Assembly: GCA_015680905.1 (NCBI GenBank)
Contig: CM027381.1
Location: 88,995,501-89,059,500, forward strand
DNA from: Coptis chinensis
Lineage: Eukaryota; Streptophyta; Magnoliopsida; Ranunculales; Ranunculaceae
DNA length: 64,000 bases
Direction: 5' to 3'
Part shown: piece after piece, positions 28,909 to 56,694 of the stretch
Position numbering within the stretch: the stretch's first letter is position 1
Layout of the letters: every line of letters starts with the position of its first letter
The notes under the pieces: model-generated
Told to the model about the DNA's origin: nothing
Database searches by the model: none
Seen by the model: only the letters and a program-made list of their open reading frames with translations
Translations under genes and position numbers: made by a program

Positions 28909-31136
28909 AATTTGCAGATTAATATCCCATTTTTGACCGCCATCAAGCAAGTTCCCTCGTATGCCAAATTCGTGAAAGATCTAGTGAAGAAGAAGACCAA
29001 CATTCTGAAAGAAGCTTTTATCGCTTAAAGATGTTTATCGTACCTACAGAATCTAGCGGTTGTGAAACTGAAAGATCCTAGAAGTCCAACTGTTACATGC
29101 AAAATTGGAGATTCCTTATAATAGCAAGCTTTATTAGATTTGGGTGCCAGTATGAATCTTCTACCATATTTCGTCTACGAGAAGTTAGGCTTGAAGGATC
29201 TTAAACCGACTGATATTACTTTACAGTTGGCAGATAGATCAGTGAAGATACCTAGAGGAATCATTAAAGATGTCATAGTTAAGATCGAAGATTTCTATTA
29301 TCCGGTTGATTTCATAGTACTCGACACAGAACCTACATATGGTAGGCAGATACCAATCATTCTAGGCAAACCATTCTTGGCCACTGCAAATGCACTCATC
29401 AACTGTCAAAATGGTAATATGACGTTATCCTTTGGTAATATGATAGTCAAGACCAATGTTTTCCATATGTTACAGAAACCACATGAGGTGTGTGCTGTGA
29501 ACGAGGTATGCATGATTGAAGCATTAACATAGGATTATGTGACTCATTCATATCCTGCTGATGAGTTATTGAAAGCTCTGACAGACTCAGACTGTGAGGA
29601 ACTTAGTGTTGAGGCAATCAATGTGATTTTGGATTCATCACCTGTCATGGATGATAGCAAGTTCAAAGAAAAGTTTGAATCGCCTATGCCTGATGGACCA
29701 TCTAAAGAGCTTAAAAAGGAGCCGCCTAAGCTAGAATTGAAATCTTTCTCGTCTACACTCAAGTATGTTTTCTTGGGAGATTTGGGAACCTTCCCAGTAT
29801 TTATTGCATCAGATTTGACTGAGGAGCAAGAATCCAAGTTAGTAGCACTTTTAAAGGAATACAAGTTAGCTATAGGTTGGACAATTGGTGATATCAAGGG
29901 GATCAACCCTATGATAGTTCAACATAGGATTCATTTGGAAGAGGATTCCAAGACTTCTAAGCAACCACAGAGGATGCTTAATTCGAAGATGAAGGAAGTA
30001 GTTAGAGAAGAGGTCATCAAACTCCTTGACGTCGGCATTATCTACCCTATTTCTGATAGTCAATGGGTTAGTCCAGTTCAAGTTGTGTCGAAGAAGTCTG
30101 GAACCACAGTGATCGAGAACGAGAACAATGAGTTGATTCTAACCAGGATTTAGACTAGATGGAGAGTTTGCATCGATTACAGGAAGCTGAATAGCGCATC
30201 GAGGAAAAATCATTTTCCATTGCCATTCATTGATCAAATATTAGAAAGATTAACTGGACAAGCTTACTACTGCTTTCTTGATGGTTACTCAAGATATTTT
30301 CAAATCCATATTCACCCTGAGGACCAAGAGAAGACCACATTCACATGTCCGTTCAGAACATTCGCCTACCGTCATATGCCTTTTGGTCTATGCAATGCAT
30401 CGGCCACTTTTCAGCGATACATGATAAGTATTTTTTACGACATGGTAGAGAAATACATGGAAGTTTTTATGGACGATTTTTCAGTTTTTGGATCATCTTT
30501 TGAGGACTGCCTACACTATCTCTCCTTAGTCCTTAAACGTTGTTGCAATACCAACTTAGTTTTAAACTCGGAAAAATGTCACTTCATGGTAAAGGAAAGA
30601 ATAGTGCTGGGTCACCAAGTTTCAAAGGAAGGAATTCTAGTAGATCGAGCAAAGATTGATATTATAAAGGATCTACCCAAACCGAGAACTGTAAAAGATA
30701 TTCGTGCCTTCCTAGGTCACGCAGGATTCTACCGTCGATTTATCAAGGATTTCAACAGAATTGCAAGACTGCTGTCACATCTGTTAGGGAAAGATATTGT
30801 CTTTGATTTTGATACCTCATGTGTCAAAGCTTTTATGAAGTTAAAGGAAGCACTCACTTCAGCACCAATCATTTGTGCGCCCGATTGGAGCCAGCCATTT
30901 GAGATCATGTGTGATGCATCTGATTATGCTATAGGAGCCATTCTAGGACAAAGAGACAAGAAAGTGACATATGCAATCTATTATGCTAGCAAGACTCTAA
31001 ATGGAGCTCAGATTAACTATTCTACCACTGAGAAGGAACTCTTAGCCATCGTCTATTCTCTTGAAAAATTTCGTTAATATCTGATAGGTTCAAATGTAAT
31101 AGTTTATACTGACCATGCTTCCTTGCGTCATTTATT
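28909..31136 (+). pseudogene. Pol of element C, first part: protease, reverse transcriptase, RNase H start
   Basis: Protease: ALLDLGASMNLLPYFVY near 29127, with tandem TAA and TAG just before it. RT follows from about 29990: GIIYPISDSQWVSPVQVV, CIDYRKLN, HFPLPFIDQILERL, MPFGLCNASATFQRYM and an intact catalytic box FMDD (near 30475), then EKCHFMVKERIVLGH and HAGFYRRFIKDF. RNase H begins MCDASDYAIGAILGQ near 30910 and ends abruptly at 31136, where the CACTA transposon interrupts it. Stops are TAG at 29530 and 30151 and TAA at 31075. The RT domain between the stops at 30151 and 31075 is long and open (285 residues from 30220), the best preserved part of the element. Confidence 0.93.
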
Positions 31137-31149
31137 CACTACACCAGAA
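31137..31149 (+). repeat. Left terminal inverted repeat of the CACTA element
   Basis: CACTACACCAGAA, preceded by the ATT target copy at 31134-31136. It pairs with 47251-47263. Confidence 0.96.
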
Positions 31150-31160
31150 AAGACATTTAC

Positions 31161-31499
31161 TAACGGTTATATCCGTTACTAATATTTTTACTAACGGTTA
31201 TATCCGTTAGTTCTGGGGCGTCACTCTCACTTAGGCCAACTTTAGTAACGGATATAACCGTTACTGATTAATAATATTAGTAACGGTTATATCCGTTACT
31301 AAAATTATTTGTAACGGATAGCCAACAACTCGTGACCCGATTAAATTTGTCATTTGTAACGGATATAAGTGTTAGTCAAGTTTGGCGCGCTTCAGTTTCT
31401 AGCGGGAAAATAATTTGTTTCTCACGGATATAACCGTTAGTAATGGATGTGGTCACTTGTTTACTAACTATTATTTGTAACGGATATATCCATTAGTAA
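31161..31499. repeat. Left subterminal repeats of the CACTA element
   Basis: About eight copies, in both orientations, of a palindrome-like motif close to TAACGGATATAACCGTTA, some degenerate. In En/Spm-type elements, repeated subterminal motifs are bound by the TNPA protein. That role here is inferred from position and repetition. Confidence 0.85.
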
Positions 31500-31973
31500 A
31501 CTGTCGCCACTAAATTAAAAAAAAAAATCCTGGGTCAAATAATATCCAATACAAATTTGGTCAAATAATGTCAGATGAGTAGACGCTGAACTATGTGACT
31601 GACTTCTCATACTTATATACAATGATATGATGAGTACAAAATTTTCACCGGGTCAAGGGCAGAGAAAGGAGCTCCCAAAGCCTTCCGAGTGGTGGACATG
31701 AATGTACTAAGTCGAGAGACTATGGAGAAGCAAATTGATTCTTGGACCCTCTCCTTCATCATCGACGCTTCTTCCGAATTCTACAGAGATCTGAAAAGCT
31801 TCAAGAGTGGTGATTCTTTCTTCGATGCTATAGGTACCCGGTGTATCGGGGCCCATGTATGACCAAGGTCTAACACAACACAATCTTAACAATAGAAAAT
31901 CTTTGGACCCCAAGAATACTGATATAAGAAAGAGGGCACCAAAAGATAGAGAACCCAAAGCACAAGTTCTCAT
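31500..31973. other. Unassigned stretch inside the CACTA element
   Basis: A plus-strand frame around 31700-31850 reads METMEKQIDSW-like coding (RETMEKQIDSWTLSFIIDA) without recognisable identity. It may be another captured fragment. Nothing else is supported. Confidence 0.3.
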
Positions 31974-32830
31974 CTATAGCCATCTTCACCACTTAGTGAC
32001 AGTAGAATAGAAGGAAATAACTCTGAAGATTCTTCTCTAGGGCATATACATATGGCAATTTGACTAAGCTTCTGACAAGAAAAGGAACTTGATCCAATTG
32101 ATTTTAAATGATAACCGAGCTGCAAACAATTAAGCACAAAATTAGAACAACGTTCTTTATCTAGAGGCCCACCACAATAACTATTTAACATCACCTCATT
32201 GAAAGACAAAATGCATCAGTATCACTTTAAACAATATAAAATGGAAAGTGAAAGGCAAAAACTGAAACTAGCTAATTTACAAAGACTGCGCACCTAGTCA
32301 CCTACAAGTGTACAAATAATGCTATCCGAAAATAGCATGTCAATCATCAACATCATAGATAAAATCAAGGCAAGAGATGAACAGATGCATACTTCCAAGT
32401 CCCCATACTACATCAACACTACTAGGACTCAGCTTAGATACTGCGTGTCCAATTTAAATATGAGGTATCCGAAACATATGGGTTGTCAATGCAATACAAA
32501 AGGTTCGCAAGGTTTGGAAAAAGATTTGCAAGCAGCCCAGTAATATATTATCAAGAAAATCAAATCATTTAGATTTCAAACCTTTGAAGCCTCAATCTCG
32601 TGTCGGCATCATCATATAGAGGCCCACCAATAAAGAAACCATCTGGTTCAGTTGTCGTTTCCAGCACTAATTCACCTTTCTGCAGAGGAGCGTCGCCACT
32701 ATTATCTGCAGTTACAACTCTTATATCAACACCAGAAATCGGTGGAGAAACTGAACCCTCGATATACAATCCCGATCGACCAGAAAAGGGCAGAATCTTT
32801 TCTTGACAACCATCAATTGTAACTGAAACC
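31974..32830 (-). pseudogene. Captured fragment of a NOMO (nodal modulator-like) gene
   Basis: Minus strand. The exon from 32830 (after acceptor TTTTCTAG) encodes VSVTIDGCQEKILPFSGRSG, then LYIEGSVSPPISGVDIR and LETTTEPDGFFIGGPLYDD. It ends near 32575 with a small frame disturbance. The exon 32119-31974 (after acceptor TTTGCAG) encodes LGYHLKSIGSSSFSCQKLSQ, then PSILLSLSGEDGYR. These motifs match the repeated beta-sandwich (carbohydrate-binding-like) domains of plant NOMO proteins, ER membrane proteins of the translocon-associated complex. The two exons are in the correct order, with an intron between. The rest of the NOMO gene is absent. The fragment lies directly downstream of CIPK exons on the same strand, and the first NOMO exon can join the last CIPK exon in frame. 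No complete protein is possible. Confidence 0.82.
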
Positions 32831-32918
32831 TAGAAAAGAAAAGGTAGTAAATACCATGTTATAGCAACAGCCCACAGATAAGAACAGAGTTCATATTGCT
32901 CAAGGAATCATTTTGTAC

Positions 32919-34179
32919 CTCTGTGGCGACAGAAAGATGGCCCTTTCTTCCAGTCTTGTCACCTTTCAACTTCATCTGCAATATGGTTGGCATATTGCCA
33001 AGTTAATCAAATAATTTTGCTAAAAATGCTTAATCATATAACTTGTGGAGCGTCCTTATCAATATACCATATTAAGATGCAGCGTTTTACCTTGTAATTA
33101 TTCTTGTGCACATTAAAACCAAGAGGTTTGGCAGCTTCCTCTATTTTAGACATTATTTCATTTTTAGGCTTGAGAAGTAAAACGTGTTTCTCGGCTGACG
33201 AGACCCTATAGTTGGAAGGTGTAAACAAACGATTACAAAGGAGCATTCATTAGTCAGTCCGAAAAATGAAATTTTTAGGAGATAAATTGCAAAGGGAAAC
33301 AGTCATGCTGCTGGTTGTTTTGACCAGTGGCTGGTGAACATAATCATACTCTTACAGTTACAATAACACCACTGAGCACGAGAAATAAAAAAAAAAACAA
33401 AGCATAAGGGCTCAATTCATCAGAAATTAGTGATCATACCTTTGAGTCGTTAAATACAGCAACAACATCATCGAGGCTTACGTCTTCTCCTTGTTCAAAG
33501 TCTGGTGGTCTATACCCTTTCTTAAACCATTCATTTTCTAGTATGTCAGGGATTGTAATTCTCTGGGGAACATAAAAAGGTGTAACATTATAGAAAAGCC
33601 AAACACATCAAATCTACGATGCTGATTTCAGTACAAAACGAGCTCAAAGATTGGGCTTGGGGTCGGTTTAACTATAAAACCACTAGCGTGGAAGAAGCTT
33701 TCTCGAGAGTGGAGACAACTTACAGTAAGAGGATTGGGGTCAAGGATGCGCTTAATTAGGTTCTTTGCGCTGGACGAAAACCATGAAGGACACGTAAAAT
33801 CAGCCTTGTTGATCTGTAGTTTCAGTGAACTAGATCATGCAACACTTCTCTGATCAAATATTAATATTGAATTAGGAAGGAAATCATATTTAAGTAGTCA
33901 CCTTTAAATACAGAGATATTAGATTTGACTCGTCAAAAAGGCAAGTAGCGAGCCATAAGAACAAAAAGAATCACTCCACAGACCATATATCCATTTGTTG
34001 TTCCATCATAACCTTAATCATTAAGAACCTAATATAAGAAAAACACCGGAAAAATACAAACCGTCATAAGATGCAATAGTGAAAACCAATTCATGATTAA
34101 ACAAAGATAGAACCAGAAAAATACCTCTTGAGCAACATAATTTAGTGTCCCACAAGCGAGTGTGAAGTAGGCCATCTGC
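32919..34179 (-). pseudogene. Captured fragment of a CIPK (CBL-interacting protein kinase) gene
   Basis: Minus strand, with introns kept. Exon 34179-34125: activation-loop region (ADGLLHT, then CGTLNYVAQE in a shifted frame; one-base damage). About 34025-33902: kinase subdomain IX (CGVILFVLMARYLPF, flanks damaged). Exon 33813-33724: [20 protein letters not shown] and RILDPNPLT. Exon 33562-33440: RITIPDILENEWFKKGYRPP and DDVVAVFNDSK. Exon 33205-33091: NEIMSKIEEAAKPLGFNVHK. Exon 32975-32919: MKLKGDKTGRKGHLSVATE, the PPI domain. CIPKs are calcium-signalling kinases regulated by CBL proteins. The exon expected between 33440 and 33205, with the NAF/FISL motif that binds CBL, is missing. The ATP-binding N-lobe and the C-terminal end are absent. 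The last three exons are intact and bounded by GT/AG. Confidence 0.88.
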
Positions 34180-37100
34180 CTGACAAGAAATTAAAGAAGT
34201 TTGCTCTTAGTTTATCATTATCTACCAATAAGCACAAAACAAGTATTTATGAAGGAAGAAAGGAGGAGAATGGATTAACTTTGGAGCCTCCAACTCAAAA
34301 AGTCAAAACCAATAGGCAAGGGGTGGAGTGGCCCCAAGATCTTGGGGCCATCTCCTAATAAAAGTAGTGCTACAATAAACCCGGCGGTTTGAAAAGTTGA
34401 TCGGTAAATAAATTATATAATCCTTTCATTTGGAACGAACTTTTGCAACCCCATCAAGAGAAAACCGAATCCTAAAACACGGGCGGTTTTGCATTTTCAA
34501 AGCATTAATGTTTGTAATACTATTTCACCTCCTATACAAGCATATAACCTACTAATGACTAACCCATCAAACTGTTTTACGTCCCTATCAATAAATAATG
34601 CCAAGTAGTAACAAAAACGAATCGATACTAAAGGAACTCGTAGTAACTATTGTTCTGGCTCAAGAAAGCATTAGATTGACACATCAAAAGGTCTCTGGTA
34701 CTTAACAAGAACAGTGTCATCATTTGAAATTTTTTGAGCATATCACTTACCTAGTTAGTGGTTGTGCCTCACAATGGAGCAGAAAGGGAGGGTCTTGAGG
34801 CGAGAGGTGGTGGAGAATTTACAACATTTGGCTCGAGTGAGAAGCCCAATCCATCCAAATATTGCTATGAGAGATTCTAGTTTGCAGTAATGTCTTGTTG
34901 TTGTCCCTAATCTTCTTTCCCCTGCAGAAGTACATCAACACGAGACCTCCCCAAATAAAGCGATTACCGCTTCCATTATCGTCCTCTATAAAACAAATAA
35001 CATGCCAACAAAGACACAATTAAAACAGCAGAGATGGATACTGTTTTAAATAAAAAAATCAACCAAGTTGGACAAGAAAGCTAGTTATTTGGGACAAAGA
35101 CCGCTCTGAGAATGTCCAAACCACAATACTAAAATAGGAAGCTCAGATACCTTCAAAGAACCAACAGTTGCACTTTCCGAATCTCGATAAAGAGTTCGGT
35201 ATCTTGAAGGACTTGATAATTGAGCTTCACCGAGATAAGGAAGATAAGTGCATGTAAGAACTCCTTAAATGTCGGCCAATATCATTCAAGGACACATAAT
35301 CAATTTCTATTACCATGAGAATCTTTGACCGGGAGGACGAAGTCTTGAGCAGCCAATCAACATGAAGCCCCACTTGCTGCAAAACAAACAATGATCTTGA
35401 AGAAAACATTGCACAAAGGCGAAAACAGTTAAACAAAGCGATAACATGGTCAAATATAGACCTCCATTTGCCGTTCCTCCAAAATAGAGTTCATTATCCT
35501 TGACCTTCTTGAACTAACTAGAATTTCCTTCACTCATCGATCCCCTCGTAGGATGTGGACACTAAGCTTTGCTCATATAGCCTCCTTTTCTTAAAAGGAT
35601 AGCTCCTTTGAGACCTTTGGGTGCGTGTAACAAGTTTTCCTTCAAGGAAAACAGGCTTCATGTCCCCATCTATAAAATAAGAGAACCCCAATTAAAATGT
35701 GATCATTGAATTAAGATTTAACAAAATACCAACTCAACGGGCGGGATACGATATAAATAAACCGAAAAGAAGCTTACCACTATTAAAAAGATCCCCATCT
35801 TTCAATTTCGGGCAACTTTCCAAGATCCGGATGCCAACGGCTTTAAGATCCTGCGGTCACCAATACGTGGTGGTGCCCTAAAAGTCTTCAAAAAGTCACG
35901 GTGCTAGGTTGGGTGCACCGGAAGAGTTTTTCGCCATCATCTTTACTAACTAATTTTACATCATCATGGTACCTAGGAAAAGGACCATGAAGAATGGGGT
36001 CGGTGCACAAAGGCACCTTCACACTACTATCGAAACTTACAAGTGCGGGGGTTTTAGTATCTAAATCCATTGGGTACTTTCAAAATGCGTGTGGGCACAT
36101 TACCATTTGGTAAGGTACCAATCTTTTCCTCGACTCCAACTTCCGTTTGTAGGATTCAAAGACATCCCTGAACATCTCTTTGTTTTGTTTGGTAACCTTC
36201 CCGATTTCTTTTCGCTTTTCACAAACCTTGAATCTTGAAGCAAATACCATTATCCGAACGCGATCCTTATTGCTACCTTGCAAGCCAAATTCAAGCAAAA
36301 ACACTCTCATCGAGCTTCCTTGATCACGGGGGTTCTAGTTTTAGTGGTTTCTCTTCATCTAGCAATTCCTTCTTAATGGTATCTTTGACAATTGTGGGTT
36401 GAACTCTACCGGAAGATACATTACTTGAAGCAGAGTACTTTCCCTCTCTTGCAATAACTTTTCAGGGGATACATTACTAGAAATAGGAGTACTTTCTCTC
36501 TCTTGCAATAAGTTTCCAAATACAAAAAGCAAGCAACTCAAATGCACACATACTATTGTCTTCAACTTTCTTTTTATAAGAACGTTTTCTCAAAACCGTA
36601 AAATACAAATTAGAAGTTGAACCATTTTCATATTTGGTAAAATTAGGAAGACATACAAAATGGTAGGAGTATTTACCCGAGCTGATCTAGAAGCTTTGGG
36701 TATTGTAGGCACCCGAAAAGCCATTATATCCATAATCTAGCCTTTTCTCAGATCACCATATCTTACAAACATATACCATATAATGATTCAACACGAACGT
36801 AGAACCAGCCTTCAAAGACGATTCACGGTCTACAAAATTGAAAGACGGATCATTAATTCAAAAACCCTCAACTAAAATGATCAAACGACACAAGATGATA
36901 ATGTGCTTGTCACATTACAGCTGACCATAATTCCAATCATAAAAAGCATTGAAACAAAGGAGAAAGAAATGTGCTCCAACTTATGGTGATACTAAGGAGA
37001 AAGAAATGCATAACTAACAACAATTCTCTCTAAAAGAAAATGCCTTCACTTGATAAAAAAGAATATTATATAGATTCCACTACAAGTAAAAGCCCATTGA

Positions 37101-38109
37101 AGATCTCAGATGACACCCAATTACTCCATTTACTCATGCACACAGATTCCCACCACATGCAAGTAAATTTGGAAAATAAAATTTCAACGTCCATAAGTTG
37201 GAAAGAGAAACCCACACGGGATTTACAAAGATTCGATTACTTGCCGGGATGTGAAGAGAGATTAATACTCAATAGACCATGAATTGAATCCAAGTATGAG
37301 AATTCCTTAACAGATAAGATGAAAGACCAGGAACCCACAATCCACCCATCCCCATAAAATCAAATTCTCAAAAATGACAAAACAGAGATCTTACATTTTA
37401 CAAGTTGTGAGAATTAGCTTGGGCTTATCACACCAGAGTTGAGATCAAAAAGAATTTTCTACTGCTAAAGGAACTCGTAGTAACTAAAGGAACTTCTCTT
37501 AAACTTTTCTGGCTCAAGAAAGCGAGTGAAAGGATCATCGCGTGTTCATTGGTTCATTGTGCAGGTCATGCGGTCTCATTGCGATACGAAACCCGGAAGG
37601 AAGGTATGTACTAGTTACGTACTGTTTTCATATACTAGAAAAGCCAAAATAATAATAAAAAGAAAAACAGATAGAAGGATAGTATGTACCAGTATGTTGC
37701 GCATAATCACAAGTAGCAACAATGGAGTTCCAACATTATGAACCTCGCATGCATCAAACAATTACACAATCATTAGTGGCAAATAAAAGTAAAAACTTCA
37801 AATTAAAATAGCTAATGGAAAGAAGAAGGGAAAAAAAACTAACCAGGGGCTTACGCATCCCCCGGCTGACTACTAATTGCTCCAAGCATCTCATCATCTC
37901 TATCCATGTTGCCATCTGCACCAAAACTTAAATACACGGAAGGCCTTGATTTCTTTACAACAAGGCAAGTCAAGACATAAAACTAATAAAAAGAATTGAC
38001 ATCTATGTACAATTAAGATTCTAAGTCATGATAACACTAACAGTTCCAAGTCATGGCAACCACAACTACATCAAAGTTTAACGCCATATTTGTTTCTTAA
38101 GTTTCCAAA
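34180..38109 (-). other. CACTA interior with unassigned coding-like fragments
   Basis: No gene is recognised with confidence. On the minus strand a coding-like stretch at 36310-36080 (KVTKQNKEMFRDVFESYKRK) continues in 36070-35888 (PILHGPFPRYHDDVKLVSKD). A possible exon at about 35880-35785 encodes DLKAVGIRILESCPKLKDGD before a GTAAGC donor. Another at about 35670-35540 encodes MKPVFLEGKLVTR. They look like further captured exons of one unknown plant gene, since they share a strand with each other and with the CIPK fragment. I cannot name it. Elsewhere the stretch is AT-rich without features. Confidence 0.4.
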
Positions 38110-39969
38110 CTAAAGCACAAAACCAAAAAGTAGAGCAATCCAAAAAGATCTAAAACCTACAAACAAAGAATCATACTTCAATCGCCCATCAAGCCAAGCT
38201 ATATACCCTCCTTCAACCCACGCGTTCAAAGTTGCATTACCATCTTGTGGACCGTCATAAACAGCAGCATCGGGAACCAATACTTCATCAATATACACTC
38301 TTCTCTCTCCACCAACCAGAATTCTGCCATGACAAATTGTTGCACCAACATCAACAGACCCCTTAGCAACTTCTGCACCAAACTTATCTAGTAATGTGAC
38401 TCTAGGCTGTTCAAGCGACCCAAAAGCAGGGGTCAAGTTCTGAGGAGTTGCTGAAGAATGCCGTTGAGCAGAATTTGAACCAAGTTCAGTTCTAGGTGTA
38501 GTCACACCCATATGTGCTTCGGCATTGGCTGTCACATTATTGCATAGTTGTTGTTGAATGAGAACCTGCGATGGAGTAGATGATGCAAGGATATTTTTTA
38601 TGTGTGGATCAAGAATTAACAACTCTAACCATTACCACTAATTGCAAAGAAAAAATTGACCTTGAGCATTGATTTGACCTCAGACATGTCTCCATCGACC
38701 TTTGATTTCAATGAAGCCATGTCGGCCTCGACCTTTGCAACTGATGTAGTGGCCATTTGGTTGATTAAATCATTTGCCACAGCAGCATGTTGTAGCTGCT
38801 TTCTGGTAATATTAGAACCAACTCCACGGACACGGTTCTTCTTTTCCTTGCCAAGTACTTCAGTCAACGCATCGGAGTCGATGTCTTCAGTGTTAGTCTC
38901 TCCACTCGCTAGTCTTCTTTCCTGAACTGCTTTCACTTGATCCTGCAATATATATATTTTTTAAAAATCAAATCAAATATCTAAAAATATATCCGATAGC
39001 AATCAAAAACTACATTTAGTTAATAGAAAGAAACAAAATTTCTACTCACATATTTTTCCCGAGCACTTGCCAAAATTGAACCATCACGGCGTTCACGGCC
39101 CTTGCACCAGTCATCTACCCGAGTCCTTTTTGCTTGAGGGTTTTGTTCTTGCTACAAGCAAATAATCAATGCTTAGTAATAGTGCTAAAGAAAGACAACT
39201 AAAAGAAAATATATTAGTCAGCTAGCATAGTTAATTGTTTTGCAAATTTTATACATGATCAAACGATATTTTTATTTCAAAAGTGATACGTACCAGCTCC
39301 TTATGTATTTGGGAGAAGGTTTTCCTCCCATTAGTAGTACCAATATCATTCATTGCCCTATTGTTTGCATTTTTTGCATTTCTGTCCTTTACTTTAGGTT
39401 GAAGCTCATAGTCAACAAAATCAACCCAAAGAGTTGGATTAACACCAGGTGGGCAGTTTGCCTTAGCTGCTTCAATGCTTTCAGTGTTTGCCAAGAACTT
39501 TGACCGATACGTCGCTTTCACAGTCCTAAGTTTTTTAGGATAATTTGTCTCAACCCATGGACGAGCAGCAAAATTGGATACATTAAATTCATATTCCTTC
39601 TGTCATGAGTAAAGTGATTGATAAGAAACAATATGGTGAGATATAGATTAAAGAAAGGTAGAGTTGACCAAAAACAATACAAAAAAAAAATACCGTCAAG
39701 GCTTTCCAAATAGCATCCTTAAAGCCATCTTTCACTAGTCGCCAATCTTTAGTGTTGATCGGGATATGAAGCCTCACTTCATTCCCTATTGCAGTCTTGA
39801 AGTTGCTTGCATTTGGTCCAACAATTTGGCCATTAGACCACACCTCAACAAGCAACTTCCCAGAAGGACCTCTTAATTGTGCCGTTTTGGATGACCGAGA
39901 ACTACATTCACCTGTGGGAAAAGATGCATCTGATGCGCTGCAGTGTGTATTTCTATTACCTGACTCCAT
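38110..39969 (-). pseudogene. TNPA-like protein gene of the CACTA element
   Basis: Minus-strand exons separated by introns. 39969 to about 39690 begins with ATG and contains LRGPSGKLLVEVWSNGQIVG and LHIPINTKDWRLVKDGFKDA. 39521 to about 39290 contains NPTLWVDFVDYEL and GRKTFSQIHKEL, typical of the plant En/Spm transposase_24 family. 38948-38640 is a helical stretch (NITRKQLQHAAVANDLINQ). 38622-38110 ends with a C-terminal module (VAKGSVDVGATICHGRILVG, then VYIDEVLVPDA) found at the end of such proteins. In En/Spm, TNPA binds the subterminal repeats and assists TNPD. Exon structure looks largely preserved, but I cannot confirm one uninterrupted reading frame, hence the pseudogene call. Confidence 0.75.
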
Positions 39970-40259
39970 TATTCAAAAACAACCTAACAATTCCCAACAA
40001 TTGAAAACATATTATCAAGGATTTCATAACACTTCAAATATGACATATAACAAACAATTATTAAGATCTTAAAAATGTAGAATAGATCAAGTAAAAAGAA
40101 AATAAGAAAAAATAAAGGAAGAGCACGTACTATCAAATTAACCAGGATATCAAAATATTAGCATCCAAATCTAGTACATAATCATCAAAAGAGAAAACTA
40201 GTATTTTGAACATGTTTTCAAAATTACAAGTACACACACAACAATCATCGACGTGGTTC

Positions 40260-43200
40260 TAACAATGATCTCAAATTAGGTTGCTGTGCAAGAGTAGATT
40301 GAAAGTCTTATGGTACTTCTAGCTGGTCCACTTGACTAGTCATTCGCCTTGGTGAATGTATGACCACCCACCAATCAAGATTTTTTAGATCTCTCGAATA
40401 GAACACTTGATGGGCTTCTTTGGCAAAAATGGCGGCTCATCTAACATTTTGTCGAGCTCTTGAGCGATTAAAATTTACCATCAACAAGTTAGAGTCTGGG
40501 CATAGCTTACAGCCATTGGTCTTATCTTCCACTCTAACCCAGTCACAATAAAACACCACTTCCTTGAAATTTGTGTAATCCACCTCTAGTATTTGTTTGA
40601 TGACCCCATACCACATAGCAGATGCATCGATAGGATTTTTATCTTTCCTACTTGATGTGAATGTAGTAATTGCACTCATGCAAACACCACTGTCTTGAGT
40701 AAGAACGGTCTCATCGTGAGACTTAGTAGAAAATAAATAACCATTAACGTGATACTTTCGAAAACTTTTAGCTTTGAACAATGGCCCTCTAGCAAAGAAC
40801 CACAATTCAGATGAAGTGTCATCATTCTCCAGCAACTACACAAAGAAAACATAACACAATTCAAAAAAGTGTAAATAATAATAACAAAAAATCGTTATCT
40901 TCCTATCTCCATTAACTAATACCTTATTATATAACCAATGATAAAATCTGTTTGTATCTCTACTTCTGTCTTTTGCTATCCCTTTCCTATTGCCTCGGAA
41001 TTAGATTGCAAAGACTCAATGATAATCACTAAAATTTAACCAAAAAGTTAGTATATATATCTGTCAATTTATTACGGGAAAATAGACACACATCTAAGAA
41101 CTAACACCAGTAGTGATCGTCAAGTCCATCGACTTCCAACCGAAAAAGTAGCCATCTACGGATTTGTACAAATTGCTCCGAAGACAAAATCACATCTTTA
41201 CCTCCAAGCACAGGCCCCTCATCAATATATTCATCATTTTCATCTAGAAACACTTCACCAGTAGTGCTTTTGTGATTTTTGCTCCGTGGATTTGGAATGT
41301 ACTCCATTGCATACCTAACAGACTCAGAAACAAGATACGACTCTGCAATCGATCCTTCAACAAATCGTTTGTTACTAGGTATATCTTTGCACTCCTTCAT
41401 TGACCTATTTAAGCGATAAACCCATGAATGCATTTATTAATTTTATTTAAAACCGAGACAAAAACAATGGGGATTGAAAGAAGCATAATTTACCTCTCAA
41501 ACGGATACATCCAACGATCTCTAGCTGGTCCACACATCAATGCCTCGTCAGCTAGATGCACAACAAGGTGGATGCTAATATCAAAAAATGATGGTGGAAA
41601 GTACTTTTCCAACACGCACAATGCCTCTGCAACCATGTATTTGGCATCTTGGATTTCTTTTCGAATTACAACTTTCGAACACAATATGTTAAAAAATAAG
41701 CTTATCTGGTGAAGAGCTCTCCGCAAAATCGGGGATGAGATGGAAAAGCATGTTGAAGTAGCACGGGCAAAAGATATTGCATAATCACATGATAGTCATG
41801 TGATTTCATTCTGAAACAAACAAGGTGGATCAAGGCGACGATGTTACTTTCAGATTAGATGAAAAACCTGATGGGAGCTTCAAAATTTTTAAAGTTTTAA
41901 GAAAATTCATCTTCTCCTCTTTATCTAGAATGAACGGTGCTGTAGGTTTAACTTGTTTCCCACTTGCAGGGTCAGTTTGCATCCACTGATTTCGGTGTAT
42001 GCCAAGTTCCCTCATATCCTCTCGTGCACGTCAAGATCCTTTGATTTGTCTTTCTTACTAAGGATCGTGTCGAGTATGTGCTCTGTAACATTCTTTTCAA
42101 TGTGCATCACATCAATAACATGACGAACTTTATGGTGAATCCAGTAAACAAGGAAAAACAATATGGACTTTCTGTACCATGCCAATGTAACTACATTACC
42201 CTCATTGTCGTTAACTACATTTTGACCGCCTCTCTTCCGCTTCTTACCAGGTTTATACTTCACATAACTCAACGTTTGCAAAAGTGCATCACCATTTAAT
42301 CGTTGTGGAGGAATTTTATGCTCCTCTTTCTTGCTACCCACTAGTCCCAAGTACTTGCCGCTCCTGAATGGGTGATTACCTTTAAGGAATATACGGTAAT
42401 CAAGGTATACATTCTTCCTACTAGACTTCAAATATATGGAAGAAGTGTTGTCACCACAAATAGGACAAGCTTTGTAACCATGTGTTACGCAGCCCGCTAA
42501 GTTTCCATATGCGGGCAAATCATGGATCCCCCACATTAGTATAGCTTTCAAAGTGAAGTCTTCTTTTTTGTTCATGTCATAAGCTGGCACTCCTTCCCAC
42601 AACTCTTTCAACTCGTCATACAAAGGTTCAAGAAAAACATCAATGTCTCCTTTTGGTGCCTTGGGACCCGGTATAAGCAAAGACAACATCTGAAACTCTG
42701 ATTTCATGCACATGGAAGGGGGGAGATTGTAAGGCACAGTGATGACAGGCCAACAGCTATAACTAGTAGACTGAATGCCACGCGGATTAAACCCATCGGT
42801 TGCAATTGCAAGCCAAACATTGCGCTGCTCATTAGCAAAGTCCGCCACTTTTCTTTACAAATTTTCCACCGACCGAATCAATTGGATGACGATATAAAGC
42901 CCGGAAGTCTCTCGCTTTCGTGCATGCCATGTCATCTCATGTGCTATCCACGGTATACTATACAACCGCTTAAGTCTTGGAATTAAAGGAAAATGTCTCA
43001 GTACTTTGTTAGGCTCCTTAGAATTCTTTTTCCCTTTACCCCCCTCCTTAACTTTATATCTTGGAGCTTGGCACTCAGGACATTCTGTCAAATCTTTCTC
43101 TGTCTTCCAATATAAGATACAATTGTTCTCGCACGCATGAATGCACGTAGCCTTCATCCCTAAGTCTTTTAACATCTCCTTCATTACCGGATACTTCTCT

Positions 43201-43854
43201 GGGAGTGTGTTACCTTTAGGCAACCATCGCCTCAACAAGGATAAGAGTACTGTCATACTAGTTCCAGACCAACCAAATTGCTTCTTTACATTGTGAAGTT
43301 CTACAAGTGCAGAGAGAGTTGTCTCGGGACCTTCACATGCAGGATACAATTTTTCAGTTGCCTTTTTCTTATATTCATAATATCTCTTTCCTAAGTCTGG
43401 TTCAGGAACATAAGGCTCATCAAACTCGGTCCCCGGTGCCATCACCCACAACTCTTTCATGCAATCCAAAAGAAGAGTCAACAAAGTTTCCCATCCCAAT
43501 CCCGACCTCCCCAATAGTTTCTTCCTCGGTGTCTTCCATCTCAATAGCAACATCACCAATGGTTGTTTCTCCAATATTTGCAACCACTGGAGGATGAACG
43601 GCAATGTTAGATAAGTCCTCACCATGTAAAGTCCATACACAATAGGACTTCTCTATACCGTTTGAGACTAAATGGTGCTCAACATCTTTATAAGTCAACC
43701 AATACCTATTTCGACACTTCTTGCACGGGCAAGGACACTTCTTCCCACCCAACTTCCACTTTGCAAATTTAAGAAAAACCTCGACTCCCATAGAATGAAT
43801 CATGCAGCCTCTTTCCTTTTCACTCATCCATTCTTTATTTATTGGTTCAGACAT
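40260..43854 (-). pseudogene. TNPD-type transposase gene of the CACTA element, broken
   Basis: Minus strand from ATG at 43854. The N-terminal transposase-associated domain spans about residues 1-80 (KEWMSEKERGC, CPCPCKKCRNR, DVEHHLVSNG). The tnp2 catalytic region follows: KKQFGWSGTSMTVLLSLLRR, CIHACENNCILYW, ECPECQAPRYK; then WLAIATDGFNPRG, LPAYGNLAGCVTHGYKACPI and VIDVMHIEKNVTEHILDT. Next comes a DUF4218-type region at about 41726-41490 (EKYFPPSFFDISIHLVVHLA, RWMYPFER), then SIAESYLVSESVRYAMEY. Last is a DUF4216-type C-terminus at 40835 to about 40260 (DWVRVEDKTNGCKL, LKNLDWWVVIHSPRR). At least four frame changes or stops (near 43640, 42850, 42010, 41490) split it. It would encode the main transposase of an En/Spm-type element; this copy cannot. 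Confidence 0.9.
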
Positions 43855-46800
43855 TCTATACTATATTTAGACACCAAGGGAAATAATGATCAGTATAAAT
43901 AACAGACAACTAGCTATCCAAGTACAACCAAAAAGCAAGAAATAAACGGCCATCATAAGATTCAAATCACGGGTAACATTGTTTTCAATCCATAAAGGGC
44001 GAGATTTAGAACACTAAATTTTGCAGGTGTATAGCTTATTAAGCAATGCAACATATAATTTCCACCATATCTACAACTCAAAACTAACAAATACAATGAA
44101 TATATGTCATGCCCATATTTTTCGAATGAAAGAGCCACTAGGAAATTGTATTTGTGAGTACAGATGCTACTTTAACACTATCTATTGATTTGATTTATTC
44201 TAGTGCAAGGCAACTAATGAAATTAAATATGCACCAACCTAAAAGAAAAAGTCTAGCCTAGTTATACTCTTATATCCTCAACAACTAATTATCGCATTTC
44301 AAGTAGTATGTAATCCGGGGAGCTATGTACATAACCAACAAAGAAGCAAACTTTTATAACCACATCTATTAAACCAATAAAGATTAATATTTTACCTCAA
44401 AATTAGACTTAGCTGCAACAAGTGAAACTTTTGAGAAAATCCAGTCAACCCTTCAAAAGGAAACATATCAAGTATGAGAAAAACAGCTACACAATGGATA
44501 AGTGTCATACACCAACATTTTCAGAAAATTCTATCTTACGGTTGTTTTCTAAGCCAACCCCTAGTATGCACTACTCCCACTTACAAATCACGAGACAACA
44601 ACAAATTGAGGATGCCATGAATAGATTAACATACAATCAATTAGTATTTTCCAGTGAATTCTCAATCAAATCGTGCATTCTAAGATATTTAGAACTGCTT
44701 GACCAAATGAAAACTCTTCATGCCTTTAACAAGGTAACTATAGCTTTCATACCAAACAATGTTTATCTATAACATTTGGCACATATTATTGATCAAACAT
44801 AAAGCAGTAAAAGATGAATAATTATGCAAAAACACGAATCGGGCAATCATTTCAAATCGGTAAAAAGGTCATCCAGGTCTTCAAATCATTTCCGTTTGAA
44901 CTACAACGAAAAAAGTATTCAAAGACATTATCGAAACGGAAATCCTAGCAAAGCAATACTAATTAATGTATGAACATAAATCACCAAAAGCACAAACAAC
45001 CATCACCCATTTATACACACCCAAAATCCGTGGAAAAGAAACCAACTTTTTTTACTCAAAACAAGATTACCTTTCTTTTTAGGAACAGCCATGAGTTCCA
45101 TAGATCCAATATTATTACCTAACTCAAAACTGGGCATTTCCAAATTTTATCATTCTCGGGCAATAAAATACATTCCCATGACTTCGTCATTGAAGTACCC
45201 AATGGTGCGCGAGAAACAAGATAGCCACATGATTCCATCTTCTAGACATGCACAAGTTGTTCACTAATATACCCATCTCATTTTTAGTCTAATAAATGCC
45301 ATCTTTTGCAACGAGATTGACCAAACTTTACTGAAGCATTTCAACAAACAAATATCATGCAAATCGACCGACCAAATTCCCAAGGAATGATTGGAAGGCT
45401 CTAAACCATGTGTATAAAATATCTTAAAATAGGCCACATCGTTGCAAAAGGCGTGATCATTTTCTTTTTCTTGACTTGATAGGGAATCATTGAGAATCTG
45501 CGATCCAAAAACGATGGAAGTGCTAAGTACCCACCACTTGAAGCTTGTCTCCCAATTAAATTGTTATGGTGTTTTGTCAAGGCAGTGAAATATGGGCCAA
45601 CAAGTCACAAAGTTTGCTGCTCAAGACTTCGAGTAGAGACGGGGCTAAACTAATCGAAAGCGTTGAATTCTTTCATCAACAAACTGAATTACCCAAGACC
45701 ACCGACCAAATTGATCGAAACAGAGTAATTGTGGTAAGTTTAAACATTCTAAAAACAGGTCACCATTTTCCGTAGAAAGCAAGTAAACCCGAAAAGTCTT
45801 GAAATTGAAGTCGCCGTTAATCGAAAACACGAAGCGGTTCAAGTTAATTTGAAGTAATGGTTTTCTAAAGTTCAAAACCTCAAATGATGTATCCTCACGA
45901 ACTATACATTATACACCATACACCCTTTACAAACTGTATAATAAAGACGTCATCATCTAATTTTTGTATTACCTTTACTTCTTTCTCTTTTCGATGATCA
46001 AGCGTTTAGGTTCTTCGGTTTTATTTTGGCGCTTGTGATACAACTCAAAAAATATTCACTTACTTTTATTAGCAACTCAAAAAGTTTGGAAATCAACAAC
46101 CAAAATATCCTTCATTTGGATACAATAGTGGACTCACCCCAATCAAATTCAAAATCACGTCTTCACATTTATGGGCCACAATTCCACATAATGTGCAGCG
46201 CCCATATGAAAAAAGCTCAACACCATACGAATTTCGATTGAATTGACCAAACTTAAGAAGAAAACTATCGCCTTTCTTAAAAAAAAAAACTGTGGAGCTT
46301 CTTCTTTTGATGTTTGAGTCCTTTTCCCCTACTATTGTTACTATTATTATCATTAGAAAAAGAAATATAATCAAGCTGGAAAATGCACCCAAAACAACAA
46401 TCTACAAAAAATAATTTTTAGCCAACAGATGGTGAGATAACAGCAAAAGCTGAATGTCTCTGTGTTAACATTATTGTTTCCCTTCAATCCAAAATGCACC
46501 AATAACAAATCGAAAAATAAAAATATATTGGGCATTGCAGATAAAATTCAATAGCTTGTGTGTTTCTTAATTATTTTTCACTATTGTAACAATCTGGGGA
46601 GGCAATTAATCGATTGTATTCAAGAATCAAAGCTAAATAATAACTAATTACAATAAAAATCAAATAAAAACAATAAAAATGAAATCTTTATTAAAAAGCA
46701 ATAAAATAAAACTCACCTCAAGAAACACGGAGAACAAGTCTCCACTGAAAGATCGAAATCGAATCCAACAACAATTGAATCGGAGTTAGTGAAATCACGG

Positions 46801-47170
46801 GACATATATCGAGAATCAGATGTTAATCTTCCAAATACCAAAAAGAACAAGCCCAATATTCACCACCCAATGTTCATATAAGTAAAGTAAAAAAAAAAAA
46901 AAACACGAAACCCGTAGTTGTTGAACTGAACTGTGGAGTTGAAATGGGTAATGGAGATTGTTTCGAGTTTTGGTGGAGTTGAAATGGGTAATGGGAAGGG
47001 AGAGTGAAAGAGGCGAGATAGTTAGACTTATACTTTCTTTTGATTTTTGGCTTTTAGGCTTTTGTTTTATTTTCTTTTTTTTTCTCGATTTTTTCTTTTT
47101 TATCGGTAAAATATATTAAAAGTTGGGTCAAAAAATAAATTGGGATATATACTAACAAAAAACTTAAGGA
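43855..47170 (-). other. CACTA 5' region, no gene recognised
   Basis: This is the stretch upstream of TNPD in the transcription direction. It is AT-rich. One plus-strand open frame at 44422-44772 (116 codons) has no recognisable domain and is probably chance. Promoter and leader introns of the transposase would be expected here but cannot be placed. Confidence 0.4.
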
Positions 47171-47217
47171 GTAACGGATATATCCGTAAGTAAATTGGTA
47201 ACAGTTATATCCGTTAG
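47171..47217. repeat. Right subterminal repeats of the CACTA element
   Basis: Two copies of the GTAACGGATATATCCGT motif, matching the left subterminal repeats at 31161-31499. Confidence 0.8.
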
Positions 47218-47250
47218 AAATGAAAAAAATGGTCTGTTAGGAATTGACCA

Positions 47251-47263
47251 TTCTGGTGTAGTG
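47251..47263 (-). repeat. Right terminal inverted repeat of the CACTA element
   Basis: TTCTGGTGTAGTG is the exact complement of the left end. It is followed by the target copy ATT at 47264-47266. Confidence 0.96.
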
Positions 47264-48906
47264 ATTTGTTAAGCAGGATGCCAAGCCTAGGTTGATCCGA
47301 TGGATACTACTTTTACAAGAATTTGATTTGGAGATACGTGATAAGAAAGTAACAGAGAATATCGTTGCTGATCACCTTTCTAGATTGCTAGTGGAGAATA
47401 CGGAAGACAATTTACAAATCTATGAGATTTACCTGATGAACAGTTGTTCAGTATATCAGAAGTACCATGGTACAACCACATCGCAAATTATCTTGTGACC
47501 GACAAGGTACCATCGCATTGGAGCAAGCAAGAAAAAGATTTATTCTACTCAAAGGCCAGATATTATTTTTGGGATGATCCATACTTATTCAAGAAGTGTT
47601 CGGATCAGATTATTATTCGAAGATGAATCCCAGAATTGGAACAGGAATCCATTCTATCATTCTGTCACGATCAGCCTTGCGGAGGACACTTTGGCCCACA
47701 GCGTACTGCAGACAAGGTATTACAAGCTGGATTCTATTGGCCTACTCTTTTAAAAGATCCAAATATTTATTGCAAAGCATGTCCGAGATGCCAATTTTTG
47801 GGTAAAGCTCGAAAAGGTTCGAGTGGCCTCAACAACCAATCCTTATCTCAGAAATCTTTGATGTATGGGGTATACACTTCATGGGACCATTCCCGCCTTC
47901 TTTTGGTTACACCTACATTCTACTGGATGTGGACTATGTTTCAAAGTGGATTGAAATAGTTCCTACAAAGACCGCCGATCATAAAGTCGGTGTGGACTTT
48001 TTGAAGAAAAACATTCTACCAAGATTTGGAACACCGAGAGCCATCATCAATGATAACGGTTCTCACTTCTGTAACCGTGTATTTGGGAATCTTATGGCAA
48101 AGTATGGAGTAATTCACAAGCTAGATTTACCATATCATCCTCAGACTAATAGTCAAGCAGAAGTTTCGAATAGGGAAATCAAGAGTATTTTGGAGAAGAC
48201 AGTCAATCCATCTAGGAAAGATTGGTCTCTTAGACTCCAAGATGCACTATAGGCATACAGAACAGTATTCAAAACACCCATAGGGATGTCACCCTATCGC
48301 TTGGTATATGGAAAGACGTGTCATCTACCTATTGAGTTAGAACACAAAGCATATTGGGCAGTGAAAGAGATGAATTTCAGCCGAGATCAAGTAGGAGAAA
48401 GGAAGAAGCTTCAGATCAGTGAATTAGAAGAATTGAGAAGTGATGCTTATGATAAGTCAAGGATTTACAAGGATAAGACTAAAGCATTATATGACAAAAG
48501 AATTCTGAAGAGAGAATTTGAACCTGGACAGAATGTTCTGGTCTACAACTCTCGTCTAGAAGTTTTCTCTGGAAAGTTGAGATCTAGATGGACGGGACCG
48601 TTTGTAGTAAGACATGTCACACCTTTTGGAGCTATTAAAGTAGAAGACATAAAGAGAAAGACTCGTTTTAAAGTCAACGCTCATCGACTGAAGCCTTTTC
48701 TGGAGTTACCTACTAGCGATGTGGAGGCCGTTTTTCTCAAGGATCCGGTTTATCAGACCACTGTTGAAGCGGAAAATTGGGGTAAGTTACCTACACACAT
48801 TAAAGATTACATTTTATGTCTTGCTGAACCTGTTACTCTATCTAGTTTAAGTTTTTTGCATGAGGAAGCCAAGCGTCATAAGCTTGACTCCTTAGGATCT
48901 CATTAG
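47264..48906 (+). pseudogene. Pol of element C, second part: end of RNase H and integrase
   Basis: The frame resumes inside RNase H just where it stopped at 31136 ([31 protein letters not shown]). After a frame change near 47440 comes the integrase zinc region (SFCHDQPCGGHFGPQRTADK, CKACPRCQFLG). The catalytic core follows from about 47860. Its first Asp position reads His (GIHFMGP) through a GAC-to-CAC type change, while the second region ([12 protein letters not shown]) and the Glu region ([13 protein letters not shown]) are kept. The C-terminal domain at 48286-48906 is open for 206 codons ([19 protein letters not shown]), without a chromodomain. Stops are TGA at 47624 and TAG at 48250. The integrase would be inactive even if read through. 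Confidence 0.93.
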
Positions 48907-51349: not shown

Positions 51350-53238
51350 ATGCTCTCTCAGAAGAAGCATGTGCATTGCCCTTTTCGTGAGTTTGATATG
51401 TGCAAAGATGGGGTCAATGGTGGTGGCGGTTTTACAGTTTCATATATCGAAACTCACATTAAGAAGCAGCACTTGAATGGTCAGGGAGATGCAGATAGAC
51501 TGCGGGATAAAATTAAGGAGGACATAAGTTTATATTTATCCCTTCTTAATTTTTTGAAAATGGTGAACAAATGGATATGTGGCCACTGTCTCAGCATGCA
51601 TGCACTAACTATACCATGTCGTCATTCAGGAGGCACCACAAAACCACCGAAAATGACTGATAATGGAGAGTTGGGATGTCTTATTGTCGGTATACCAGAA
51701 CCACCGCCCATCCCTATGACTATGCAACATGCACTCTCATCACAAGGAGACGCTAGTGCTATCCTGAGGCCTCTGGGTGTTGTTCCCTTTCTTGATGAGA
51801 CGTTACTTGATAAGGCATTCCATATACCCTTTCGCACTGTGAAAAGTATACCACGATCTTGTCGTTTGGCATTTTCTGGTGCATTGAAGTCTGCTCTCTG
51901 GGATATTACGGCCGATCCTAGTTCAGTTATGTCATAGGTTCGTCTTCTCCTTCTTCCGTGCTACACTCTACAGATTTTTCAACCATAGAATCGTCAGGAA
52001 CGATGGTCTGGTAATAGGAAAAACCTTCAACAGAAACAGATTCTACATGCTTTGACGATTTGGAATGAGCCTGGTGGACTATTTCGCCTCTTAGAGTCTG
52101 CAGTAGAGCCTCCTTCAATACAGCCACCCCAGAGATTTGTTTCCACTCAGAATGTGCGTCGATACTTATAGAAAGTTGTTGATGGGCATTTTACTACAGC
52201 GGTAAAAGTGTTATCATCATCAGGGGTTACCCCTAACTCGGCGAAGACTATTCAAGCATTAGAGGAGAAGCACCCAATGTGACAACCACCTGTGAAGCCA
52301 ATAGTTCCTTTTGTTGAGCCCTCTTTATTGGTAAAGAGAGACACCATATTGTCATGCATTAGGTCGTTTTCGAAAGGTACTTCTTGTGGCCGTGATGGTC
52401 TCCGAGCTCAGCACTTGTTGGATGTCATAAGTGGTGCTGCAGCAGCTATATCGTCTGATTTTCTAGATGTATTGACCCCTGTGGTGAATCTTTGGTTACA
52501 GGGACGATGTCCACAGCCGTTAGAGGAATTCATAGCAAGTGCGCCGCTTACTCCACTTCTTAAGCCGGATAATAGTATTCGTCCTATAGCTGTGGGCATG
52601 GTTTGGCATCGTTTGGTCTCCAAGATTGCAATGAAAGGAGTTTCTAGATATGTGGTTGGGTACTTACAAGATTTCCAGTATGGGATGGGTGTTTCTGGTG
52701 GAGCAGAGGCGATTTTGAACGCTGTCAACCGTATGATGTATGCTAACGGTGACAATACCTCTCTTTCAATGATGCTGGTATATTTTCAGAATACTGTTAA
52801 CATGTTTGATCGAACCACCATGTTGAGAGAGGTTCGTATCTGATGCCCAGCTATTGCTCCCTGGGTCAAGTACTTGTATTGTCAACCTGCGAGGCTATAC
52901 GTGGGGGATGGCTACATATGGTCTACTAGCAAGGCAACCGTTTGGGTCCCCTTCTATTTGCACTGGTGTTGTATCCTCTAATTCTACAGATACAGTCGAG
53001 TTGTCAATTATTGCTACAGGCTTGGTACCTAGATGATGGGACTCTGATCGGGGATACAGAATAGGTGGGGACAACTTTGGGTATGATTCAGGAAGAAAGA
53101 CCTTCTTACGGGTTGATTCTTAATGTGGCTAAAATTGAGATATTTTTGCCATCACCAGATCCACGTCGCTCTTCTCCCTGTCTCTTTCCTTCAGATTTGT
53201 TCCATCCTCAGCAGGGGGTTAGGTTGCTTGGAGGTGCT
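51350..53238 (+). pseudogene. Reverse-transcriptase-domain protein (non-LTR-like, plant family), interrupted
   Basis: ATG at 51350. The N-terminal part has a zinc-finger-like pattern (CPFREFDMC...HIKKQH) and a later C/H pair (CGHCLSMH). The RT domain begins near 52290: SFSKGTSCGRDGLRAQHLLD, then LAPL-like SAPLTPLLKPDNSIRPIAVG, VSGGAEAILNAVNR and an LREVR motif. The catalytic box reads YLDDGT at about 53025 in another frame, followed by LNVAKIEIFLPSPD and VRLLGGA. This combination (GRDGLRAQHL plus YLDDGT) is typical of a widespread plant RT-domain family of uncertain mobility. Stops and frame changes occur at about 51935, 52170, 52280, 52843 and 53035. The sequence ends at 53238, where the LTR of element E begins, so its remainder should lie to the right of E. 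Confidence 0.85.
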
Positions 53239-53468
53239 TGTTTCTGTAAGATTTGCTAAAACACACCAGTTGAGGGTCAGAAGTAATGTTTTTTTGGAGA
53301 TGGTGGTTGGGAAAAGATGAGACTAGACTTCGGTTTTGAAGTTGTCTACGTACCCAAATGTATTGCTTGGGATCAAGTCTCGATGCGTAGTTCTGGAAAA
53401 ATGACGAAGGTTGGATTTTATAGGTAGGATTGGTGATAGTTATTTTCTCGTTCTCCAATATTCCAATC

Positions 53469-54013
53469 GTGGGATGAAGTTGGAGAACTGGCGGGAGAAC
53501 TGTCCAATCATGGGATGAAGTTGGAGAGGCCGGCGGAGACAACCGTCGGCCGTGGGATGAAGTTGAGAATCGGGGGACATTTGTCAGCTCGTGGGATGAA
53601 GTTGGAGAACTGGCGGGACAACTGTCAGCTCGTGGGATGAAGTTGGAGAACTGGCGGGAGAGTTGTCAGCTCGTGGGATGAAGTTGGAGAACTAGCGGGA
53701 CAATTGTCAGCTCGTGGGATGAAGTTGGAGAACTGGCTGGAGAGCTATCAGCTCGTGGGATGAAGTTGGAGAACTGGCGGGACAATTGTCCGCTCGTGGG
53801 ATGAAGTTGGAGAATTGGCGGGAGAGCTGTCAGCTCATGGGATGAAGTTAGAGAACTGGCGGGACAACTATCAGTGGGATGAAGTTGGAGAACTGGCGAG
53901 ACAACTGTCAGCTCGTGGGATGAAGTTGGAGAACTGGCGAGACAACTGTCAGCTCGTGGGATGAAGTTGGAGAACTGGAGGGAGAACTGTCCAATCATGG
54001 GATGAAGTTGGTG
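53469..54013. repeat. Minisatellite, 41-base unit, about 14 copies
   Basis: Imperfect head-to-tail copies starting GTGGGATGAAGTTGGAGAAC, most of 41 bases, with variants of 34-43. It probably lies in the LTR of element E, between the promoter and the outer end. Confidence 0.93.
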
Positions 54014-55021: not shown

Positions 55022-55245
55022 GGGATCAGCAATGCGAGCGATACGAGCGGCATTATGGGATCGGCAATGCAAGCGGATTTTTGGGATTGGCAATACCAAC
55101 GGCATTTATGGGCTCGGCAATGCGAGCGGCATTTTTGGGATTGGCAATGCGAGTGGCATTTATGGGCTCGACAATGCGAGCGGCATTTTTGGGATTGACA
55201 ATGCGAGCGGCATTTATAGGCTCGGCAATGCGAGCGATGTGGGAC
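55022..55245. repeat. Minisatellite, 27-base unit in an alternating 54-base pattern
   Basis: About eight copies of GGCAATGCGAGCGGCATTT followed alternately by TTGGGATT or ATGGGCTC. As 27 is a multiple of three, open frames run through it on both strands (NASGIFGIG type). These are not credited as genes. Confidence 0.9.
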
Positions 55246-56474: not shown

Positions 56475-56694
56475 AGTTTTTGTTTTTTATTGTTAGGATG
56501 ATGTGAGGTTAGGTTATGGTTTTTTCTCTCTCGATTATGTTTATTTTTTCCACTGTATTCATGATATTTGGTTTTTATCTATTTTTTATTAGATTGGTAA
56601 TCAGAATGGGTCGGTCAAAATATATAAGAGTTGGGTAATCTGGCCTTGAGGTAGGTCGGCAAAATAGATATAAGTATTAAGGATAACGTAATTG

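Follow-up and report, generated by a model that had tools for sequence, protein, structure and literature searches.

In soybean, the CACTA element Tgm-Express1 at the wp locus carries fragments of unrelated host genes with exons and introns kept, and these fragments are spliced into chimeric transcripts (PMC1947982). Elements of the Pack-CACTA or Pack-TYPE kind are TIR elements that hold captured coding DNA and have multiplied as deletion derivatives; in the model set out in these accounts, neighbouring insertions fuse and the captured DNA comes to lie between two compatible ends (PMC8903248, PMC13317346). CACTA elements are known to capture pieces of several genes, by a route that is usually deduced from end products. 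At the locus described here, likely donors, an intermediate family, a recipient without the captured block and the border letters are all readable in one genome, which makes it possible to distinguish between competing capture models, namely fusion of neighbouring insertions and gap repair with a template switch. The fusion of CIPK and NOMO at this locus is probably a second-hand, multi-copy transduplicate, joined in one CACTA family (X), taken from it by another (A) and carried there as a neutral passenger.

The window, a stretch of 64,000 nucleotides, corresponds to C5:88995501-89059500 of a 935.6-Mb plant genome. It contains a 16.1-kb CACTA element of family A (31137..47263) with the TIRs CACTACACCAGAA.../...TTCTGGTGTAGTG, the CACTA-type end CACTACACCAG... 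being located at 31137 and, inverted, at 47263. The letters on either side show a target-site duplication (TSD) of 3 bp, ATT, on the left (31134..31136) and right (47264..47266), and identical 3-bp TSDs were found in 6/6 family A copies with both ends located, the window included, among 16 copies examined. Repeats of the GTAACGGATATA type, candidate subterminal repeats, were seen near 31.2-31.5 kb and 47.2 kb of the window. On the minus strand, domain matches reveal a tnp2-type CACTA transposase (Transposase_21, 42015..42854, E=3.7e-67) and a Transposase-associated domain (43423..43860), together with Transposase_24-like pieces (38628..39602) that match below the curated cut-off. The element is inserted in the pol region of a retroelement, presumably of the gypsy type, with RVT_1/RNaseH before it and rve after it on the plus strand. 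Farther right in the window, tandem arrays with periods of 41, 27 and 45 lie at 53467-54011, 55044-55236 and 56692-57281, respectively. The first-pass annotation, a reading of the letters by themselves, had placed a CIPK-NOMO fusion inside a CACTA element; the TIRs, the 3-bp TSD and Transposase_21 bear this out. It had also described the fusion as reading in the direction of the transposase, and Transposase_21 indeed lies on the same minus strand.

Comparison with family X copies delimits a captured CIPK-NOMO block, common to that family, at 31829..34231 on the minus strand, as are all features of the block. Six CIPK exon-like blocks with retained borders and introns had been proposed, and AG/GT borders are found at all six in the window copy: E1 (34125..34179; ADGLLHT..., with one nucleotide more than most copies have), E2 (33902..34028; with a TAA stop, VLND*GYDG, and a frameshift in the window copy), the intact E3 (33724..33813) and E4 (33440..33562), E6 (33091..33205; frameshifted in the window copy) and the intact E7 (32919..32975), which ends in SVATE. 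Between E4 and E6, a TTAT join (33282..33285) marks a deletion of about 0.6 kb that took the NAF exon (E5), which is retained in family X and in a further group, Y. The exon E7 ends after ...SVATE with the donor GTAC, the NOMO side has its acceptor AG at 32831-32830, and exon N1 of NOMO (32582..32829) opens at 32829 with VSVTIDG, in phase as proposed. N1 encodes the 9th beta-sandwich domain of NOMO, and its start also matches the end of the 8th domain, below the cut-off. The 89-bp intron between E7 and N1 (32830..32918) is a hybrid, CIPK on its donor side and NOMO on its acceptor side, in which an 11-bp filler, GCTATAACATG (32855..32865), separates the native CIPK intron from the native NOMO intron. 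The junction joins phase 0 to phase 0; a match of this kind is a common outcome and is unremarkable by itself. A fragment of a second NOMO exon, N2 (31973..32119; LGYHLKSIG...GEDGYR), ends where the NOMO capture ends, with a TGA directly after, and is followed by a non-NOMO tail (31829..31972) common to families X and A. For the extent given initially, 32575..34179, the adjacency is real, but the block is larger and includes this second NOMO exon.

A failure of protein searches to return CIPK and NOMO had been named as a refutation of these identities. In Pfam, exon translations taken partly from sister copies matched NAF and NOMO1-like_9th above the cut-offs and Pkinase below. The short N2 piece gave no Pfam match, so its identity rests on a DNA match to the NOMO locus on C2. 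In a search of solved structures with the NOMO piece, human NOMO2 was found only at E=0.073, behind two designed proteins with better E-values over a short stretch. The adjacency of CIPK and NOMO is not due to chance, because the 1605-bp fusion stretch recurs at 91-100% identity in at least 15 full or near-full-length places of the genome, the window included.

The donors are likely to be in the same genome, with CIPK on the unplaced contig C57 and NOMO on C2, in line with the earlier proposal that fragments of both genes were captured. The captured NOMO stretch matches C2:60135628-60136517 at 94-95% identity, and a partial match to NOMO domain 1, with a stop in the open frame, is found at C2:60115519; the two share a strand, with domain 1 some 20 kb upstream, and are taken as one gene. 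On the minus strand of C57, CIPK exons occur in the order N-terminal (58332-58481 and 57755-57871, 68% and 82% to the query used), captured (counterparts at about 56.1-53.6 kb) and next downstream (53125-53202, 92% over 26 aa). This donor locus, L041, has open frames in E1-E4, in the NAF exon and in the initial part of E6, and E7 lies outside it. Loss of the CIPK donor gene is ruled out, given that L041 is a native gene with N-terminal and next exons on the same strand. Read against the native loci, the breakpoint letters of both the window and the X copy L024 run from CIPK intron through the 11-bp filler to NOMO intron.

The genome search listed 56 matches to the fusion, with the best 40 of 50 candidates scored. 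Family A has at least 16 copies of the block, 15 of them full or near-full-length and one without E1-E4, all with a backbone of the window type around the block. These copies include internal-deletion derivatives that keep the block, and deletions common to L022/L025, L018/L020 and L011/L017 (the last two only about 10 kb apart) suggest that those copies moved or were duplicated after the deletion. Family X is a second CACTA family, with the TIR CACTACAAAAAGAACGAC..., in which the block has extra CIPK sequence. Four block-bearing X elements were counted (L024, L026, L028+L038 and L023), three of which are split or truncated; the NAF exon is retained in L024, L023 and L028. The copy L026, with the TSD TAT, has most of CIPK deleted, and the flanks of L024 read CGC and CGT, an inexact TSD. 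L028 and L038 (C9:6.245-6.262 Mb) form one X element split by about 12 kb, the halves overlapping by 6 bp of X sequence. In the case of L023 (C2:1.516 Mb), the X-backbone half is placed 75 kb off on the same strand, at C2:1592961-1595079, and is assigned to L023 on the ground that the two query ranges adjoin, overlapping by 5 bp. Both split elements resemble nested LTR-element insertions. The copy L024 also has an EF-1alpha-like piece fused directly upstream of CIPK (about L024 6646-6707), and since it adjoins the CIPK-NOMO block, L024 represents a three-gene capture.

Group Y carries CIPK without NOMO in at least eight places, six of which were fetched (L037, L040, L042-L045). One CACTA-like end was found in three of the fetched copies (L037, L043 and L044) and the other end in none of the six. 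The borders of the CIPK piece in Y lie inside those in X; the piece may be an independent capture or a loan from X. Among the matches listed, there are also NOMO-only pieces at other places, including C5:14784750 and C8:46730145. The first-pass annotation had named, as a further refutation, an ordinary gene outside any CACTA element in which CIPK and NOMO stand side by side. A CIPK-NOMO join outside families A and X was found neither among the best 40 of 50 nor among the best 40 of 576 candidates, and an ordinary CIPK-NOMO gene is ruled out, as the join is seen only in A and X among the matches listed.

Comparisons between copies in this assembly are strongly affected by position relative to CG and CHG sites. 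In four stretches with 16, 15, 15 and 10 of 16 A copies (31137-36440; L009-L022 and L025), transversions amount to 3.1-5.1%, deletions to 2.9-4.5% and insertions to 1.3-3.5% at or next to CG/CHG, compared with 0.1-0.8% for each class of change at least 6 bases away. The excess is seen both in captured DNA and in the backbone of the transposon. The mean difference among A copies is 0.72% away from CG/CHG sites versus about 5% over all sites of E1-E4. Deamination accounts for C to T changes, not for indels or for T to C changes beside the site, and the best guess is that the indels and transversions at CG/CHG reflect sequencing error at methylated cytosines. A literature search on methylation-linked nanopore errors in plants returned nothing direct. 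Among exon indel events, 112/168 lie within 2 nt of CG/CHG, versus 36% of positions, and plain decay was set aside as the source of most frameshifts given this enrichment. Apart from the E2 TAA, which has neither CG nor CHG in its neighbourhood, and the loss of the NAF exon, most exon indels may be assembly errors, and part of the decay may not be real. Frame breaks and apparent ages of transposon copies in this assembly should be read with caution near CG/CHG, where they possibly reflect unreal mutations.

The block of family A is nested within that of X on both sides. The E2 TAA is present in 15/15 fetched A copies with E2 and in the X copies L023 and L038; it is absent from the X copy L024, the C57 donor and 6/6 fetched Y copies. 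In a tree built on 507 columns away from CG/CHG sites (L025, L026 and L028 being left out for lack of data), A stands apart from all others (0.974) and adjoins L038 and L023. The all-sites tree, contrary to this clean split, places L038 inside A beside L018 (0.967), and most internal supports are low in both trees. Away from CG/CHG, the distance to the donor is greater for A (5.9%) than for X (about 2%), an excess that possibly stems from alignment error near the NAF deletion. Matches to the left end of A (best 40 of 573 candidates) comprise 16 block carriers and 24 places without the block. Three of these 24 (C4:71.91, C3:27.49 and C7:82.09 Mb) show both flanks, about 1.47 kb apart; at C7:1.34 and C7:1.36 Mb and one fragmentary place, the other flank is matched, and matched well at the first two, with no left end among the best 40 of 573. 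In the block carriers of A, 2.4 kb that is also found in X stands in place of these 1.47 kb or so. The border letters, read for block-less A in the C4 element, show a TTAT microhomology common to A and X at the 5' border (34228..34231), where block-less A reads GTGCTTAT/AAAG and X reads CAATTTAT/TGGT, and a 24-bp filler at the 3' border (31805..31828). Additionally, the NAF exon deletion in A lies between two TTATs. In combination, the nesting, the TAA, the CG/CHG-free tree, the block-less sisters and the borders suggest that the block reached A ready-made from X, or from a close likeness of it, and took the place of a piece of A. The process behind this replacement would be template-switching gap repair.

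In the assembly, E1, E6 and late N1 of the window copy are frameshifted, and E2 has both a frameshift and a stop; E3, E4 and E7 are whole in frame, as is N1 for about 74 codons. Splice borders in A are kept at 16/16 acceptors and donors of N1 and at 14/16 acceptors and 16/16 donors of E7, and are worst in E3 (9/15 acceptors and 9/15 donors). Of the 20 copies of A and X that were scored, 9 keep the VSVTIDG frame past the E7-N1 join. The TAA in E2, found in each of the 15 fetched A copies with this exon, blocks any coherent chimeric protein that would start at E1. Among A copies, the three codon positions have taken up substitutions evenly (4.2/4.2/4.4%, with the frame of N1 approximate, its majority sequence not being a multiple of three); in Y the values are 2.6/4.3/3.8%. 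Exons differ among A copies by 0.050 and introns by 0.046, and within X and Y exons likewise change at least as fast as introns; between A and the donor, exons differ less than introns (0.066 versus 0.084). An open reading frame under constraint across the fused parts, as a functional chimeric gene would have, is not seen: E2 carries the stop and codon positions change at equal rates. With the NAF exon gone as well, the cassette is unlikely to work as a fusion gene, and its decay is suggestive of a young neutral passenger.

In the history proposed here, an X element would have captured stretches of the host genes CIPK (C57) and NOMO (C2) and joined them intron to intron, the 11-bp filler between them being the observed trace. 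The TAA would then have arisen in E2 in the X sub-lineage whose copies still carry it. An A element with a break or gap may next have been repaired from a TAA-bearing X copy as template, putting 2.4 kb of X, with the finished join, in place of the roughly 1.47 kb of A, a structure that can be read with its TTAT and its 24-bp filler. Deletion of the NAF exon from TTAT to TTAT, seen in 16 A copies, would have preceded the spread of A, which appears to have transposed to at least 16 sites and given rise to many internal-deletion derivatives with the block. If transcribed from the element, the cassette could supply spare exons or give rise to small RNAs.

The annotation from the letters had instead supposed that two captures were placed side by side in the window element, giving family A a chimeric unit driven by the transposon promoter. 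This would agree with the common strand of fusion and transposase, with splice borders mostly kept in A and with the VSVTIDG frame that continues past the join in part of the copies. Yet the join with the same filler, in a longer version, is found in family X, the block-less A elements point to one replacement rather than two insertions, and the common TAA and the lost NAF exon speak against function, so that the proposal is highly improbable; the earlier interpretation is partly supported, its observation being confirmed and its mechanism only partly right. Another possibility is that the block came to both X and A from a third element, or from a host gene region with pieces of CIPK and NOMO already joined. 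The X copies are few and mostly split or truncated, and NOMO-only pieces do occur elsewhere; a third source is nevertheless unlikely, in that the TAA marker and the CG/CHG-free tree put A with part of the X copies and the candidates scored hold no join outside the two families.

A different question is whether the cassette, whatever its origin, is selected or used, for example through a short E7-N1 peptide or through small RNAs against native CIPK and NOMO. In the window, L009 and L026, spliced E7+N1 starts with ATG and has an open frame of 101-102 aa (101 in the window), and at least 16 homologous copies would be a plausible source of small RNAs. Against this stand the lack of codon-position bias in A and exons that change no more slowly than introns within A, X and Y, and selection or use is judged very unlikely on these patterns. 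The reading as a second-hand passenger relayed from X to A leads to a broader proposal, which is on balance favoured: through template-switching gap repair, cassettes captured from host genes would be handed on as finished units from one CACTA family to another with different TIRs, with the result that fused host exons are pooled and the recipient with the higher copy number becomes their main disperser. A relay between CACTA families with a block-less recipient was not found described in literature searches of limited depth.

Among known systems, Tgm-Express1 is the nearest case, likewise a CACTA element with several unrelated host fragments that keep their exon-intron structure. Chimeric transcripts are described for Tgm-Express1 and would be putative for the window element, whose likely donors are located; here, in addition, two CACTA families share the fused block, one of them with at least 16 copies of it. 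The nearest class is Pack-CACTA. Host coding DNA, the CIPK and NOMO fragments with likely donors located, lies between CACTA TIRs, and deletion derivatives are present. Unlike a non-autonomous, transposase-less Pack-CACTA element, the window copy still holds transposase gene pieces with recognizable domains; the alignments of L009, L015, L022 and L025 skip the transposase region, which makes these sister copies non-autonomous. The capture of CIPK and NOMO is ordinary Pack-CACTA biology, and what stands out is that the relay from one family to the other can be traced: where the Pack-CACTA model has neighbouring insertions fuse, an internal stretch of about 1.47 kb has here been swapped for the DNA of another family, with microhomology and filler at its borders.
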